The notes beneath the pieces were generated by a model. That model ran no database searches. It had not been told where the DNA came from and worked only from the letters and a program-made list of their open reading frames with translations. This document shows, one piece after another, positions 7,378 through 48,151 of a DNA stretch of 64,000 nt; the stretch's first letter is position 1; each line of letters starts with the position of its first letter. Position numbers and translations under genes: made by a program. This DNA comes from Bdellovibrionales bacterium GWA1_52_35 (GTDB taxonomy: Bacteria; Bdellovibrionota; UBA1018). The stretch covers positions 84,538 through 148,537 of the forward strand of contig MEPO01000013.1 in NCBI GenBank assembly GCA_001769805.1, given 5' to 3'.

Positions 7378-8100
7378 ATGCCAAATCACGCCGCTATTGT
7401 TCAAACAGGTGTAGTCGGTCTCATCTCTGATTCCGGACCCGTCGCAAAATTTGTCCTTCTTCTCCTGCTGATGGCCTCCGTCTTCTGCTGGGCGATTATT
7501 TTCATGAAATATCGTTCGCTCCGTCGAGCGCAGGTCCAGAACACCGAGTTTCTGAACACCTTCTGGCACGGAAAGAATCTCGACGAAATCATCGCCAAGG
7601 TCGACCAGTTTTCCGCGTCTCCGATTGCGGTGATCTTTCAGGCCGGCATGAAGGAGATGAAAAGATTTCCCGGTCTTGACGGCGAGATCAATGGTGGAGC
7701 GGACCGGAGCTCGGATCGTATCGAAAATATTTATCGAGCCATGATTCGCACATCGCAGTCAGAGGTCGCGGTTTTTGAACGCCACATCGGCTGGCTGGCC
7801 ACTACCGCCAGCGCCGCGCCGTTTGTGGGCCTGTTCGGAACGGTCTGGGGCATCATGAATTCGTTCCAGAATATCGGCGCCACCGGTGCCGCAAATCTTG
7901 CCGTTGTAGCCCCGGGTATATCTGAAGCGCTCATTACAACCGCCACCGGCATCGGTGCCGCGATTCCGGCAGTCATCGCTTACAACCATTTTGCCGGCCA
8001 GATCAAACGCATTTCGATCGAAATGGAAGGGTTTTCGCATGATTTCCTGAATATCGTCCAGCGGAGCTTCTCCAATGCCGCCGGACGGAAGGGAAGCTGA
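7378..8100 (+). CDS. tolQ: MotA/TolQ/ExbB proton channel family protein, TolQ-like
   Basis: HIGWLATTASAAPFVGLFGTVWGIMNSFQNIG and PGISEALITTATGIGAAIPAVIAYNHF; followed by tolR, TonB-domain protein and tolB. Confidence 0.93.
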   Translation: MPNHAAIVQTGVVGLISDSGPVAKFVLLLLLMASVFCWAIIFMKYRSLRRAQVQNTEFLNTFWHGKNLDEIIAKVDQFSASPIAVIFQAGMKEMKRFPGLDGEINGGADRSSDRIENIYRAMIRTSQSEVAVFERHIGWLATTASAAPFVGLFGTVWGIMNSFQNIGATGAANLAVVAPGISEALITTATGIGAAIPAVIAYNHFAGQIKRISIEMEGFSHDFLNIVQRSFSNAAGRKGS

Positions 8101-19065: not shown

Positions 19066-19141
19066 GAGGCATTAGCTCAGTCGGTAGAGCATTACACTTT
19101 TAATGTAAGGGTCCACGGTTCGAATCCGTGATGCCTCACCA
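19066..19141 (+). tRNA. tRNA-Lys (anticodon TTT), CCA encoded
   Basis: Cloverleaf by eye: acceptor GAGGCAT/ATGCCTC, D-arm GCTC..GAGC, anticodon loop CTTTTAA in stem TTACA/TGTAA, T-arm CACGG TTCGAAT CCGTG, discriminator A + CCA. Confidence 0.97.
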
Positions 19142-19269: not shown

Positions 19270-20190
19270 TTAGGCTGCTTTGTTTTCGTCTGTTACGACA
19301 GCCACAGCCGGGGTAGCCGCTGCCGATGAATCGGGGGCAGTAACCGCAGTACCTTCAATTGCATCAGCCGATAATGGTCCTCGCCTTTTGGTTTTTTTCG
19401 CCTGTTTCTTTTGGTTCCGAATATATCTATCTAGCTCAGCTTTTTGAGTTTCATTCCATGTACCGACCAGATCGTTCAGTCCTTGTTCTAGAAGCTCTGA
19501 AAGCTTGTCGGTCAAAAGGTCAACTGAGGCGCGATAATCATGCTCCCCGTTCAAGACCTTTCCAATGCGCTTCACTACATCGGCGGAAAGGATCGCGCGC
19601 GCCAGAGAGTCGGGCGAAAGCGCTTGAGCTTCAGCCGAAAGCTCTTCCCACGTTTTGCCCTCAAAATAGTTAGCCGAGAACTCTATAAGATCCCACGCAG
19701 CCTCGGTAATCCCCTTACCAGATACATCTAGCTCCTGCTGATCATTTCGAATATCGGTAGATGCAACAGTAATGAGATCACTTTTGAAATCATATAAACG
19801 CCATTCGTAGCCGTTCGTCAGGATTCCCCACCTAACGTCGCCAACGGTCTTCAAATATTCATTAAGCTGTACCTTACCTGAGCGCAAATCTGACTTATTG
19901 AGATCTGCCCCTAGCTTTTTCACTTCCACAAGCAACAAAATCTGCTCAGGCTTATCCGCCTTTGATATGGCGATATCAAATCGCATTTTTGCACGTGCCT
20001 CTTGTGTCCTAACGACGTAGCCGGAACTTGCGCTGAAACCGAGAACTGACTTCAAAAGGGATTGGCACCAACTCTCAATATCGCTTTCCTTAGATGAACC
20101 CGAAGCAAGATTTTTCAATTCAATCATATGCTCAGTCAGTAACGGCGTCATCGAGCGTACGGTTCTTTCATCTTTCGTTTCTTTAGCCAT
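19270..20190 (-). CDS. HsdR-N-terminal-like / PD-(D/E)xK-type protein, paralogue of 24695..25612
   Basis: KMRFDIAISKADKPEQILLLVEVKKLGADLNKSDLRSGKVQLNEYLKTVGDVRWGILTNGYEWRLYDF; D..ExK arrangement and WGILTNGYEWRLYDF typical of type I R-subunit N-terminal domains. Confidence 0.75.
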   Translation of the reverse strand: MAKETKDERTVRSMTPLLTEHMIELKNLASGSSKESDIESWCQSLLKSVLGFSASSGYVVRTQEARAKMRFDIAISKADKPEQILLLVEVKKLGADLNKSDLRSGKVQLNEYLKTVGDVRWGILTNGYEWRLYDFKSDLITVASTDIRNDQQELDVSGKGITEAAWDLIEFSANYFEGKTWEELSAEAQALSPDSLARAILSADVVKRIGKVLNGEHDYRASVDLLTDKLSELLEQGLNDLVGTWNETQKAELDRYIRNQKKQAKKTKRRGPLSADAIEGTAVTAPDSSAAATPAVAVVTDENKAA

Positions 20191-20201: not shown

Positions 20202-20217
20202 TATTCGTTTTGGAATA
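20202..20217. promoter_or_regulatory. Operator-like inverted repeat TATTC-GTTTTG-GAATA
   Basis: Perfect 5-bp arms, 6-bp spacer, about 12 nt upstream of the start codon at 20190 (minus). Confidence 0.5.
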
Positions 20218-20349
20218 CAGTGCTTGTATCGGAACAACACCAGTTGTTCTGAAGACAAAAAAAACTTCCACATTTTTTGTGTGGCAATGATTTCACTTTA
20301 GGCGGCAGGCACCCGAACCGCCGTGTCTCAGATAATTGATTAACCCTTA

Positions 20350-20817
20350 TTATTGAATTGGCTTTTCTGTTGCGCGGTCACAGACCGCAGCCCAACTACC
20401 ATTCACGCATTTAATAGAGCAATCTGAGCTTCTTTTTTTTGGAATTGGACCAGAGCAACTCTTCTTTGTGCTTGGGGGTGCTTTGAAATTCTCATCTTCA
20501 CCTTTTAAACTTGTGCCCGTAGCCGAATCTAATGCTGTCGGACTTGGCGTAGCCTCACATTTTTGTGGCGCGCTTTTGCAGGCCGCAAAGCACTCATAAC
20601 CACTAAATGCGCTACCACAACCAAAGATTCGCTCTGGCCTGTGCCCGCATAACTCCATTGCACGCGACTTTATGGCATCAACTTCACAAGAGGGCCCATC
20701 GCTGCAACGCACATTAATTAACCACGTATGTCCGTCTGGCAACATAGCCTCTTTGTAAGCTGTTGCACAGCCGGAGCTATAAGCTACGAGTAAGGAAAAG
20801 ATAAGAACCCTTCTCAT
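20350..20817 (-). CDS. Small Cys-rich predicted lipoprotein
   Basis: MRRVLIFSLLVAYSSGCATAYKEAM lipobox; multiple Cys. Confidence 0.6.
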   Translation of the reverse strand: MRRVLIFSLLVAYSSGCATAYKEAMLPDGHTWLINVRCSDGPSCEVDAIKSRAMELCGHRPERIFGCGSAFSGYECFAACKSAPQKCEATPSPTALDSATGTSLKGEDENFKAPPSTKKSCSGPIPKKRSSDCSIKCVNGSWAAVCDRATEKPIQ

Positions 20818-20833
20818 GTGTGTAGCTCCTCAA

Positions 20834-21112
20834 TCACTTCGAACATGGTACATCGAAGCCAAAAGCGCTCTTGCACGCAACTTTCCGCTCGGGTTCTCCC
20901 GGTTGTGGCACGCCGTCCATCTGCCTAGTACGGTAGCACATTGGACCTGCATTTTGATCCGCATCATGAGCCTTGCAGTAATACAGCGACATTCCCACCG
21001 TTCCGTGTTCCGTTACATTAAACCATCCGCTTTTCTCGTGGGTTAAAAACACGCCCGTAGTTGGAGCACACCCAAAGAACACAATAACCGAAATGAGTAC
21101 GAATCTCCTCAT
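20834..21112 (-). CDS. Small predicted lipoprotein
   Basis: MRRFVLISVIVFFGCAPTTGVFL lipobox; longer ORF from 21187 has an unlikely N-terminus. Confidence 0.55.
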   Translation of the reverse strand: MRRFVLISVIVFFGCAPTTGVFLTHEKSGWFNVTEHGTVGMSLYYCKAHDADQNAGPMCYRTRQMDGVPQPGEPERKVACKSAFGFDVPCSK

Positions 21113-21222
21113 ACCCACCTTTCGGTTTTGGTGCATTTGAAGGTTCCATTGAAATCTGCTTTCCCGCAGCAAACCAAACCAATCCATTTACTAGAACAGC
21201 CGACAGCAGTTGAATTTTTCAT

Positions 21223-21242
21223 ACTATTCAATTCGGAATAGT
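21223..21242. promoter_or_regulatory. Operator-like inverted repeat ACTATTC-AATTCG-GAATAGT
   Basis: Perfect 7-bp arms, 6-bp spacer; upstream of the minus-strand lipoprotein gene. Confidence 0.5.
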
Positions 21243-21287
21243 TTGAAGCAAACATGAGTCAACTAATTCGCACTATTCCCAGCATCT

Positions 21288-21953
21288 CTATTCCGGTATT
21301 TCAACGCCCTGCACCTCAATGTCATCAGTACGCGGCGTTCGAGAAATGCCCGTATCAATTATGTAAGTGATCGGCCTATCAGGATCGCCCACGACCTTCG
21401 TCTTATTCCCGTAAACGTCTGGATTACTGATCTGAGCTACCCACTGGTAAGCCGCAACTTTAACCCGCGATGCCTGTACGTTGTCCTCATCAACCGTATC
21501 CGCTACCTCGATTACCTTTCCCTCAAAGAAGTCGGCCCGGCATTCCCGAGCAATCCTCATGTGCGCCCGGAACTCGGGATGCTCTCTCAGCCACCTGAAA
21601 ATCGTGTGAGCCGGTGGAAAGCCCTCTAATTGCCCAATCTGAGTGACCGCAAGACCTTCCGTAACCTTTTGAAGTATTTGGTCACAAGTCACCTGAGCGA
21701 ATGGGAACGCTACACGAGGCAGTTCGTCCGGGTTTGTACCTTTCGGCACCCAGAGCTTCCGGCCACGGTCATCAATGATATGATGATGCGTTTCGCTCGG
21801 CTTCTTGTCGGCGTTCGTATACTTGATTCGAGCAGGATCACGGCTTGAGCGTTTCTTCTTCTCAACCCAAAGGACGGCGCCAGTCTCTGGATCAAGGCCC
21901 TCAAGAACGCCCTCGGCGTTTACTCGCGTGATCTGTTTATCTGTCTCGCTCAT
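21288..21953 (-). CDS. Phage terminase small subunit-like protein
   Basis: HTH-like ICDQILQKVTEGLAVTQIGQLEGFPPAHTIFRWLREHPEFRAHMRIARECRADFFEGKVIEVADTV..SRVKVAAYQWVAQISNPDVYGNKTKVVGD matches the terminase-small-subunit pattern (ATVYRWL..pEFr..Y..Ar..qad.l.dei...ad). Confidence 0.72.
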   Translation of the reverse strand: MSETDKQITRVNAEGVLEGLDPETGAVLWVEKKKRSSRDPARIKYTNADKKPSETHHHIIDDRGRKLWVPKGTNPDELPRVAFPFAQVTCDQILQKVTEGLAVTQIGQLEGFPPAHTIFRWLREHPEFRAHMRIARECRADFFEGKVIEVADTVDEDNVQASRVKVAAYQWVAQISNPDVYGNKTKVVGDPDRPITYIIDTGISRTPRTDDIEVQGVEIPE

Positions 21954-22169
21954 GGAACAACTCCTATTAAGAGGGTTAACATTGTTTTAAACGCTATTCG
22001 GAAGCGGCGCATAATAAGGCCGTGAAAATGCGTTGCAGCATCGGTTTTTCAGAAAAACTTGTCCCGAACATGGAAAGGTCACCACACGTCAGGCGAGCTG
22101 CGCGTTTTGGGGTGTATGGGGTCAAATCAAAGGCCACCGGGGATGTCTGTGGGGTGATCAATGAGCAAC

Positions 22170-22373
22170 TCATCGCTTGCCCTTAGTGCCCTGCTCTCGC
22201 AGCCACGTAACGTAGTCCTCAAGAATTGTGGTCACCAAGACTGAGAGGTCATGCCCAGCATTTTCTGCCGCTTCCCTCAGTGCTTCCTTAGTGGACTCCT
22301 TCACCCTGACTGAAAGGGTCTTGGTTGGTTCCTTCTTCTTAATCTCACTCGGATGTCTGTATCTCGCGGTCAT
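22170..22373 (-). CDS. Ribbon-helix-helix (CopG/Arc-type) DNA-binding protein
   Basis: 67 aa; TKTLSVRVKESTKEALREAAENAGHDLSVLVTTILEDYV. Confidence 0.75.
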   Translation of the reverse strand: MTARYRHPSEIKKKEPTKTLSVRVKESTKEALREAAENAGHDLSVLVTTILEDYVTWLREQGTKGKR

Positions 22374-22409
22374 AATTTCACCTTATATGAATCACCACAC
22401 GTTTACAAT

Positions 22410-22420
22410 ATGTATTACAT
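22410..22420. promoter_or_regulatory. Near-perfect palindrome ATGTATTACAT between RHH gene and recombinase gene
   Basis: Lies 4 bp upstream of a TTGACA (22425..22430) that is 17 bp from TAGAAG (22448..22453). Confidence 0.45.
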
Positions 22421-22473
22421 TCTGTTGACAAATAGACTAGCGACCTGTAGAAGCGTGCGCGAGAGGTGCAGTT

Positions 22474-23043
22474 ATGGCCAATCGTGTAGCAATTTATTTG
22501 AGAGTATCGACCCAAGATCAAGCCACTGAGTTACAGCAGCGCGAACTCACGGCGTATGTTCAAGCCCGTGGCTGGGTTGTATTCAAGACCTACGAGGACA
22601 AGGCCACCGGAACCACTGCCAATCGAGCCATGCTCAAGGCTATGCTAACCGATGCACGCCTGCGCCGATTCGATCGCATCATAGTATGGAAGCTTGATCG
22701 GTTTGCCAGATCGCTCAAAGACCTCGTTACAATGCTTCAGGAACTATCTGAACTGGGAATTGAGTTCATCAGCTTACGGGACAATATCGACCTCACCACA
22801 AGCTCAGGGCGGCTTATGATGCATATGATTGGTGCATTTGCTGAGTTTGAAGCCAGCATTATCCGCGAGCGGGTACGTGCCGGGATCGCCAACGCCCGAG
22901 CAAAAGGGAAACGATTGGGGCGCCCAAAGACAAGGGATGACGGCACAATCAAAGCATTGCGCAGGCAAGGGCTATCAATCCGATCCATTGCATTGCAGGC
23001 ACACTGTTCTGCAGGGGCCGTACAGCGGGCTCTGCTATCCTGA
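22474..23043 (+). CDS. Serine recombinase (resolvase/invertase family)
   Basis: VAIYLRVSTQDQATELQQRELTAYVQARGW, IIVWKLDRFARSLKDLV, GRLMMHMIGAFAEFEASIIRERVRAGIANARAKGKRLGRPK, C-terminal HTH. Confidence 0.96.
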   Translation: MANRVAIYLRVSTQDQATELQQRELTAYVQARGWVVFKTYEDKATGTTANRAMLKAMLTDARLRRFDRIIVWKLDRFARSLKDLVTMLQELSELGIEFISLRDNIDLTTSSGRLMMHMIGAFAEFEASIIRERVRAGIANARAKGKRLGRPKTRDDGTIKALRRQGLSIRSIALQAHCSAGAVQRALLS

Positions 23044-23140
23044 CGAGTCACATATAGCATCACAGAACCACAGGACGAGCCTGAGAACTAAATTACAAAT
23101 ATCGCTCAATGAGAGCTGTATCTAGACCGAAACTATCAGT

Positions 23141-23548
23141 ATGAAACGAATTATCTATTTAGTTCTGATCTTGGCATTACCCGCATTACCGGGCACTGCG
23201 TTTGCGAAGAATCTTTTTTGCAACGAAATAGGATCAACAGATCTAATGTGGGAAAAGACAAAACAAAACTTCAGTACTCAGGGGTATAGTATCCCAAAAA
23301 ATCCAGCTACCTTTGCAATTTCAAATTTTGATTCAAAAAAACCGATGCTCGTTGGAAACGCCGGGAACGAAGAACTCGCACGCAAAGGTGATTATTTTTT
23401 CGAAGCTACGCCTGTCGGAAATATTAATCTGTACCGCTGGTATCGATTGGACGCTAACACTGGTCTGATCCTCATGATTAAAGCATACGATATGCTGGGA
23501 GCCCCGTATTCGATTTCTGTCGCATACAAATGCAAAGTCGGAATTTAG
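23141..23548 (+). CDS. Small secreted hypothetical protein
   Basis: MKRIIYLVLILALPALPGTAFAKNLFCNE signal peptide. Confidence 0.5.
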   Translation: MKRIIYLVLILALPALPGTAFAKNLFCNEIGSTDLMWEKTKQNFSTQGYSIPKNPATFAISNFDSKKPMLVGNAGNEELARKGDYFFEATPVGNINLYRWYRLDANTGLILMIKAYDMLGAPYSISVAYKCKVGI

Positions 23549-23600
23549 CGACCTAGGGTCGGTGTATCGAAATTCCTGATCAAATCAAACCAAAAATGCC

Positions 23601-23851
23601 TTATTTATTCGGAGCGAGTAAGCGCAGATACTTCGTATTCAAAACATTAGATTTCGATGCATCGAAATAATTATTCCGACCTTTTCCTCTGTGCCGGTTA
23701 AGCGTTTCGATTTGAGTGGTGAAAGTCCGCATAAGCTTGTTCGCCCATTCGATATTTAGGGCGACCCCTTTGCTTGATAAACCCTTGTTGTTTGCTCGAC
23801 CAAACAATCCATCGCAAGATTATGAACGGCCGCCATTTGGGCTGAGAGCAT
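23601..23851 (-). pseudogene. Frameshifted/truncated remnant of a phage/plasmid-type conserved protein
   Basis: Two overlapping reverse frames: MLSAQMAAVHNLAMDCLVEQTTRVYQ (23851..23756) and ..EWANKLMRTFTTQIETLNRHRGKGRNNYF (23807..23601). Together they resemble the 'QMxAxHxxAMECxRRA...QANKLxRTxxxQxExLxRHRGKGQQ' architecture (recalled family pattern). Confidence 0.5.
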
Positions 23852-23968
23852 ACCCCACAATCACGCCTGATCCGAACCTTTAGCGCACCGGTTATTTCGA
23901 AGCTGCGGGGAAATTCGAATCAACTGGCACAACTTGCAAGTGGCGCATATCCACTAAAATAATTTCAC

Positions 23969-23988
23969 AATATTCGTTCAAGAATATT
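23969..23988. promoter_or_regulatory. Operator-like inverted repeat AATATTC-GTTCAA-GAATATT
   Basis: Perfect 7-bp arms, 6-bp spacer; 23 bp upstream of the lipoprotein start at 24012. Confidence 0.5.
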
Positions 23989-24011
23989 GCTATCCTATCC
24001 GAATAGCATTC

Positions 24012-24694: not shown

Positions 24695-25612
24695 ATGAGC
24701 CGTGAAACGAAACAAGATCGCCTCGTACGAGGAATGAATGACCAAGTGCTTGAGCATCTACACGAACTCAAAGCACTCGAAGCAAACCCCGCTACAAAGG
24801 AGCTTGATCTGGAACGATGGTGTCAAAGCGTCGTTCGAAATTGCCTCGGATTCACGCCCACCAATGGCTATAACATCCGAGCACAAGAGACCCGTGGCAA
24901 AATGCGACCCGATCTCCTGGTTATGAAAGGTGACGTAATTGTGTGCGTAATAGAGGTGAAGAAACTCGGTTTTGACCTTTCAAAATCGGATTTCCGCTCA
25001 GGGAAGGTCCAACTCGCAGAATATCTTAACGCTCTTGGCGATGTCCGTTGGGGAATTCTCTCGAATGGCTACGAGTGGCGGCTATACGACTTCTCCCAGA
25101 GAAATGCTGGCGGAACTGAAGTAACTTCTTTTGACCTGCGAAACGAGGAAGACCAAATCGACTTAACAAAACGCTCTATTGACGACATTTGCTGGAGCTT
25201 CGTCGACCTTCATGAGTCAATGTATGCAGGAAACTCTTGGGAAAATCTTGCAAAAGAAGCGACGGCATTCTCGCCGGAATCACTTGCTCGAGCTATTTTA
25301 TCAGCGGAGTCGGTGAAATACATCGCCAAAATTATTCGCGGAGAGCATGACTACCGAGCTAATACGGAAGTCTTGTTTGATAAACTCTCGACCCTACTTC
25401 AGAACGGGTTGGATGACTGCGCACATGGATGGAATGAGGTGAAGCAGGCGGAACTTGGAAAATACGTTACCTCTCAGAAGCGTGCGGGAAGAAGAAGAGC
25501 TGCTAAAGAGGCTAAGACGTCCGCTACCCCACCTCCTATAAAAGAGGGAACGTCAGAAGCAACTCAGGAGGCCTGCACTCCCCCTAACCCAACCGCGAAA
25601 CAGGCCGCCTAA
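24695..25612 (+). CDS. HsdR-N-terminal-like / PD-(D/E)xK-type protein, paralogue of 19270..20190
   Basis: RGKMRPDLLVMKGDVIVCVIEVKKLGFDLSKSDFRSGKVQLAEYLNALGDVRWGILSNGYEWRLYDF; PD..ExK. Confidence 0.78.
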   Translation: MSRETKQDRLVRGMNDQVLEHLHELKALEANPATKELDLERWCQSVVRNCLGFTPTNGYNIRAQETRGKMRPDLLVMKGDVIVCVIEVKKLGFDLSKSDFRSGKVQLAEYLNALGDVRWGILSNGYEWRLYDFSQRNAGGTEVTSFDLRNEEDQIDLTKRSIDDICWSFVDLHESMYAGNSWENLAKEATAFSPESLARAILSAESVKYIAKIIRGEHDYRANTEVLFDKLSTLLQNGLDDCAHGWNEVKQAELGKYVTSQKRAGRRRAAKEAKTSATPPPIKEGTSEATQEACTPPNPTAKQAA

Positions 25613-48128: not shown

Positions 48129-48151
48129 AATAGTTATACTCACAGGAATAC

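Follow-up and report, generated by a model that had tools for sequence, protein, structure and literature searches.

Three matching palindromes at lipoprotein and HSDR_N promoters of a Bdellovibrionales island: putative operators of a local regulon

A low-G+C island in Bdellovibrionales bacterium GWA1_52_35, an uncultured relative of the predator Bdellovibrio, located in a 64 kb stretch of contig MEPO01000013.1 (the window), carries the palindrome TATTC-N6-GAATA three times, each time close to the start of a unit coding for lipoproteins or for standalone nuclease-like proteins of the HSDR_N type. The question raised by this locus is whether the three sites, here S1, S2 and S3, belong together as regulatory elements, or whether their likeness has another origin. 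On balance we favour, with moderate confidence, the reading in which one dimeric regulator, acting as a repressor, would recognize all three sites and switch the three units of the island together. The sites are the following:

20202..20217, no strand: S1 palindrome, TATTC GTTTTG GAATA (exact pattern search and sequence reading)
21223..21242, no strand: S2 palindrome, ACTATTC AATTCG GAATAGT (pattern search and sequence reading)
23968..23989, no strand: S3 palindrome, CAATATTC GTTCAA GAATATTG (pattern search and sequence reading)

An exact search finds the common motif starting at 20202, 21225 and 23971, with arms and spacing identical in the three cases; the sites had been listed, with these arms and this spacing, in an earlier note on this DNA, whose observation is thereby confirmed. 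The half-sites are 11 bp apart, centre to centre. The arms of S2 are 7 bp long, and their outward extension produces 12-bp arms with a single mismatch (11/12), within a 30-bp near-palindrome. S3 does precede a lipoprotein gene, as first described, but its arms measure 8 bp and its distance from the gene is 22 nt, from arm end to ATG.

All three sites are intergenic and lie at most about 25 nt from the first start codon of a transcription unit, with one site for each of the three units. The genes of these units are:

19270..20190, minus strand: left HSDR_N (PD-(D/E)XK nuclease-like) gene, 306 amino acids, downstream of S1 (Pfam PF13588 at the cut-off)
21109..21222, minus strand: open reading frame of 37 amino acids, MKNSTAVGCSSKWIGLVCCGKADFNGTFKCTKTERWV, the first after S2, read from the sequence
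20834..21112, minus strand: small lipoprotein gene (MRRFVLISVIVFFGCAP...), lipobox identified by eye
20350..20817, minus strand: second lipoprotein gene of the S2 unit, 155 amino acids
24012..24647, plus strand: lipoprotein gene, 211 amino acids, the first gene after S3
24695..25612, plus strand: right HSDR_N gene, 305 amino acids, in an apparent operon after the 24012 lipoprotein gene

S1 is separated by 11 nt from the start codon (ATG) of the left HSDR_N gene. S2 had been described as lying upstream of a lipoprotein gene, which holds in that the lipoprotein starts about 113 nt downstream; the site, however, directly adjoins the ATG (21222) of the 37-amino-acid frame, absent from that description. 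The TGA of this frame overlaps the lipoprotein ATG (21112) as ATGA, and the small lipoprotein gene is apparently translationally coupled to it. The overall layout is that of two opposed lipoprotein/HSDR_N modules.

The motif is rare. In the window its three exact copies all fall within 3.8 kb, so that the impression, gained by eye, of no further copies is borne out; shuffled versions of the window contain on average 0.02 copies, and none of 100 reached three. When one mismatch is allowed, just two sites are added, one at 7858 within a coding gene, the other at 48135 between genes. The host genome (3.73 Mb in 35 contigs) contains five exact sites: besides S1–S3, one within a coding gene (L004) and one isolated and intergenic (L005). 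A comparable density elsewhere on the chromosome, which would have spoken against an element-specific set, is therefore not observed, three of the five sites being inside 3.8 kb. The one-mismatch genomic sites that were inspected are in the majority coding, and the others share no common gene type, and a genome-wide regulon is rejected on this ground. A dispersed repeat or miniature inverted-repeat transposable element is rejected as well, in view of unconserved flanks and cores and the presence of three copies only.

Because the named motif was picked after the fact, a pattern-agnostic count was also made, in which any pair of 5-bp arms, at a spacing of 0–12 and present in at least three copies, was accepted in 300 shuffled islands. 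A family of three was obtained in 3 of them, about 1% per island. The cluster of the named motif is far beyond chance, but on this wider count the trio by itself reaches a significance of about 1% per island; the longer arms of S2 and S3, and a placement that is promoter-proximal in every case, add weight beyond that figure. No family of this kind other than TATTC-N6-GAATA occurs within 5 kb anywhere in the window, and about 250 kb of related loci yield families of three only with low-complexity arms (AAAAT, TTTTT, AATTT, CGCGG).

Exact copies are few and dispersed in 40 related genomes. Just one of these, an AT-rich genome, has another trio within 5 kb, in G048:C13 at 47338, 50681 and 50774 (within 3.4 kb); the genes alongside are unrelated, and the G+C content of the locus is 36%. 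Two of its sites, 93 bp apart (L119, 10682 and 10775), flank a divergent promoter, and the third lies 3.3 kb off, near helix-turn-helix regulator genes. A literature search for the motif gave no match, and S1–S3 correspond, in sequence and spacing, to no repressor operator known to us.

Each palindrome is positioned on, or just downstream of, the likely promoter of its unit. Candidate promoters are of the sigma28/FliA type, defined here by a TAAA-type -35 and a CCGA(T/A)A -10 element at a spacing of 11–12 nt, with a score out of 16:

20226..20253, minus strand: weak sigma28/FliA-like promoter TTCAGAAC-N12-TCCGATAC, preceding both S1 and the left HSDR_N gene, score 9/16
21230..21257, minus strand: sigma28/FliA-like promoter TCATGTTT-N12-TCCGAATT, its -10 within S2, score 10/16
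23978..24005, plus strand: sigma28/FliA-like promoter TCAAGAAT-N12-TCCGAATA, its -35 within S3, score 10/16
23988..24008: second inverted repeat, imperfect, TGCTATCC-TATCC-GAATAGCA, just after S3, spacing 5, arms resembling the motif

A perfect inverted repeat, GAACAAC-ACCA-GTTGTTC (window 20233–20250), overlaps the predicted promoter upstream of S1. FliA is encoded in the genome, and the three units may be transcribed by an RNA polymerase of this type. In the S2 and S3 units the predicted start is at, or adjoins, the ATG, and a ribosome-binding site is not visible there, which suggests that their transcripts would be nearly leaderless.

S1–S3 are accordingly described as putative operators of one dimeric regulator, under which the three lipoprotein/HSDR_N units would be switched together. 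The dimer would contact two TATTC half-sites one turn of DNA apart; a repressor would be expected from the position of the sites, which overlap promoter elements or come directly after them. Such an arrangement resembles the multiple operators bound by repressors of phages and islands (XRE/lambda-type, Arc-type ribbon-helix-helix, and HipB with TATCC-N8-GGATA), in which short palindromic half-sites at fixed spacing recur at several promoters of one element; it differs from them in that no autoregulated regulator gene was found. A local regulon of three promoters, ordinary in kind, is plausible on these sequence grounds.

A number of observations weigh against this reading. The N6 cores and the outer flanks are not the same among S1, S2 and S3, and no candidate regulator was found whose own promoter has the motif. 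The promoters of 18 HSDR_N orthologues are devoid of TATTC-N6-GAATA, save for one weak lookalike, TCATTC-TTAATT-GAATGA, located at -62 in L059/L098, for which we estimate a chance of about 10% over all promoters. The island sigma28-like matches reach just 9–10/16, a score as high as 10/16 being attained by 5 of 153 background genes, and a strict search for the sigma28 pattern gives three matches genome-wide. For the 211-amino-acid lipoprotein (24012) we could find no relatives, and for the 155-residue one the phylum offers a single candidate, a weak one; searches brought up no lipoprotein island homologous to this one. Since the lipoproteins have essentially no relatives, the island is not amenable to phylogenetic footprinting. 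An unconserved motif, next to lipoproteins without relatives, is the main weakness of the regulon proposal. Of the element-specific operator set originally suggested, shared arms, shared spacing, promoter-proximal placement and near confinement to the island stand, all consistent with operators; conservation, as far as it is testable, is missing, both at the HSDR_N orthologues and for want of a related island.

If the sites are operators, what binds them? Two further island genes enter the discussion at this point:

22170..22373, minus strand: ribbon-helix-helix protein, 67 amino acids, the one gene of the island that obviously looks like a dedicated regulator
22474..23043, plus strand: serine recombinase (DNA invertase/resolvase type), between S2 and S3

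The ribbon-helix-helix protein had been put forward as binder, a narrower form of the operator proposal that we regard as doubtful. It is the sole small regulator-like protein available in an island to which the motif is confined, and dimers of this class commonly recognize half-sites that are separated by about one helical turn. Proteins of this class, however, usually autoregulate, and the intergenic region shared with the recombinase contains no copy of the motif, even with up to 2 mismatches at spacing 6; moreover, the closest models of the protein are of mobilisation and antitoxin types. LexA, the other binder suggested at the outset, would make the three units inducible by DNA damage. 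SOS control is common for mobile islands, and LexA is encoded in the genome, but its own promoter features a different palindrome, TACCATAC-GTAT-GTATGGTA, without any ATTC-N6-GAAT, and the recA promoter likewise lacks the motif palindrome: a role for LexA is very improbable. The lexA palindrome is perfect (L114, about 1478–1497), with one exact copy of its core in the genome.

Explanations not involving a DNA-binding regulator were also weighed. The palindromes could work at the RNA level, as 5'-terminal hairpins of the messengers that control stability or translation: their stems fold better than most shuffles, and S1 immediately precedes a ribosome-binding site. The stems are nevertheless short and AU-rich, their loops are unconserved, and S2 and S3 would be largely outside the transcript if this starts near the ATG, so that we hold this to be unlikely. 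Crossover or accessory sites of the serine recombinase are unlikelier still. The enzyme is encoded between S2 and S3, and the 30-bp near-palindrome of S2 has the typical size of such sites; yet S1 and S3 are not extendable to 26–30 bp, the central dinucleotides differ (TT, TT and TC in the three sites), and all three palindromes are located at start codons. Both possibilities rank below a dimeric repressor and its operators. A recurrence by chance in AT-rich DNA between genes, selected by eye, would agree with the 3 trios in 300 shuffled islands, all the more as the 64 kb window holds about ten stretches of this size; extended arms, equal spacing and promoter-proximal placement are not included in the 1% figure, and a fortuitous origin appears to us improbable, about as much as RNA hairpins.

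The remaining features of the island complete the picture:

19066..19141, plus strand: tRNA-Lys, at the left edge; the island begins after it
20268..20284, minus strand: terminator-like hairpin with a T-run, separating the lipoprotein unit from the S1 promoter

The G+C content of the island is below that of its flanks. It also encodes a small terminase subunit of the Sf6 type, along with orphan lipoproteins and the two HSDR_N proteins. No phage or plasmid relatives were found for the nuclease or for the lipoproteins.

Standalone HSDR_N genes are present in 23 of 369 genomes of the phylum. Residues D72, E89 and K91 are invariant in an alignment of 18 orthologue sequences, and the best matches of the predicted fold are the type IIG enzymes BpuSI and DrdV; TM-scores of 0.31–0.34 of the query are low, and the resemblance is hence to be read as a match at the domain level. 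The island proteins share with the PD-(D/E)XK domain of these enzymes the predicted fold and the catalytic D, E and K, but they are standalone, without methyltransferase or specificity domains, and their long, disordered tail has -xAA or -xAS as its last residues. In most orthologues the variable, disordered C-terminus ends in a conserved -KxAA, -KxAS or -xAA, reminiscent of a degron.

The left and right HSDR_N proteins are 46% identical. The right one is closer to an Oligoflexia orthologue (68% identity), the left one to a groundwater deltaproteobacterial orthologue (70%). A recent duplication is ruled out by these values, each protein being nearer to an outside orthologue than to the other. 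Their low mutual identity and nearer outside relatives point to two genes that were probably gathered from different sources, yet feature the same motif at both. A tRNA gene often lies no more than about 0.5 kb from the HSDR_N gene (L099, L107, L108, L111 and the window; farther in L019), and the tRNA identities vary. In L019 (6300–6426), the left-type orthologue of the groundwater metagenome-assembled genome is cut at 231 amino acids by tandem repeats of the AATCCGGTNNNNNCCGATCACC type, at the contig end.

A sigma28/FliA-type element at about -50 from the ATG is detected in 13 of the 18 HSDR_N orthologues, against 5 of 153 neighbouring genes; given the kinship among the orthologues, these are not 13 independent events. 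An example is TAAACTTT-N11-GCCGAAAT. The attack-phase FliA consensus of Bdellovibrio is TTAAG-N16-CCGATA (Karunker et al. 2013, PMC3627812). The orthologue promoters resemble those attack-phase promoters through TAAACTTT-N11/12-CCGA(T/A)A, a likeness that is weaker in front of the three units of the island. The palindromes have no counterpart in the published consensus. The sigma28-type promoters of standalone HSDR_N genes are a stronger and more interesting lead than the palindrome trio. A speculative scenario, to which we assign little likelihood, is that a mobile island has put nuclease and lipoprotein cargo on the attack-phase promoters of the predator, adding private operators, so that this cargo would fire only in free-swimming cells and only once the island regulator is lifted.

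If S1–S3 are operators, standalone restriction-type nucleases and orphan lipoproteins, two kinds of cargo with no apparent relation, would be joined in one co-regulated module, and the sites would provide a direct handle for the discovery of its regulator. A phylum-wide family of standalone PD-(D/E)XK proteins behind promoters of the attack-phase type may, in turn, be tested in a laboratory predator.

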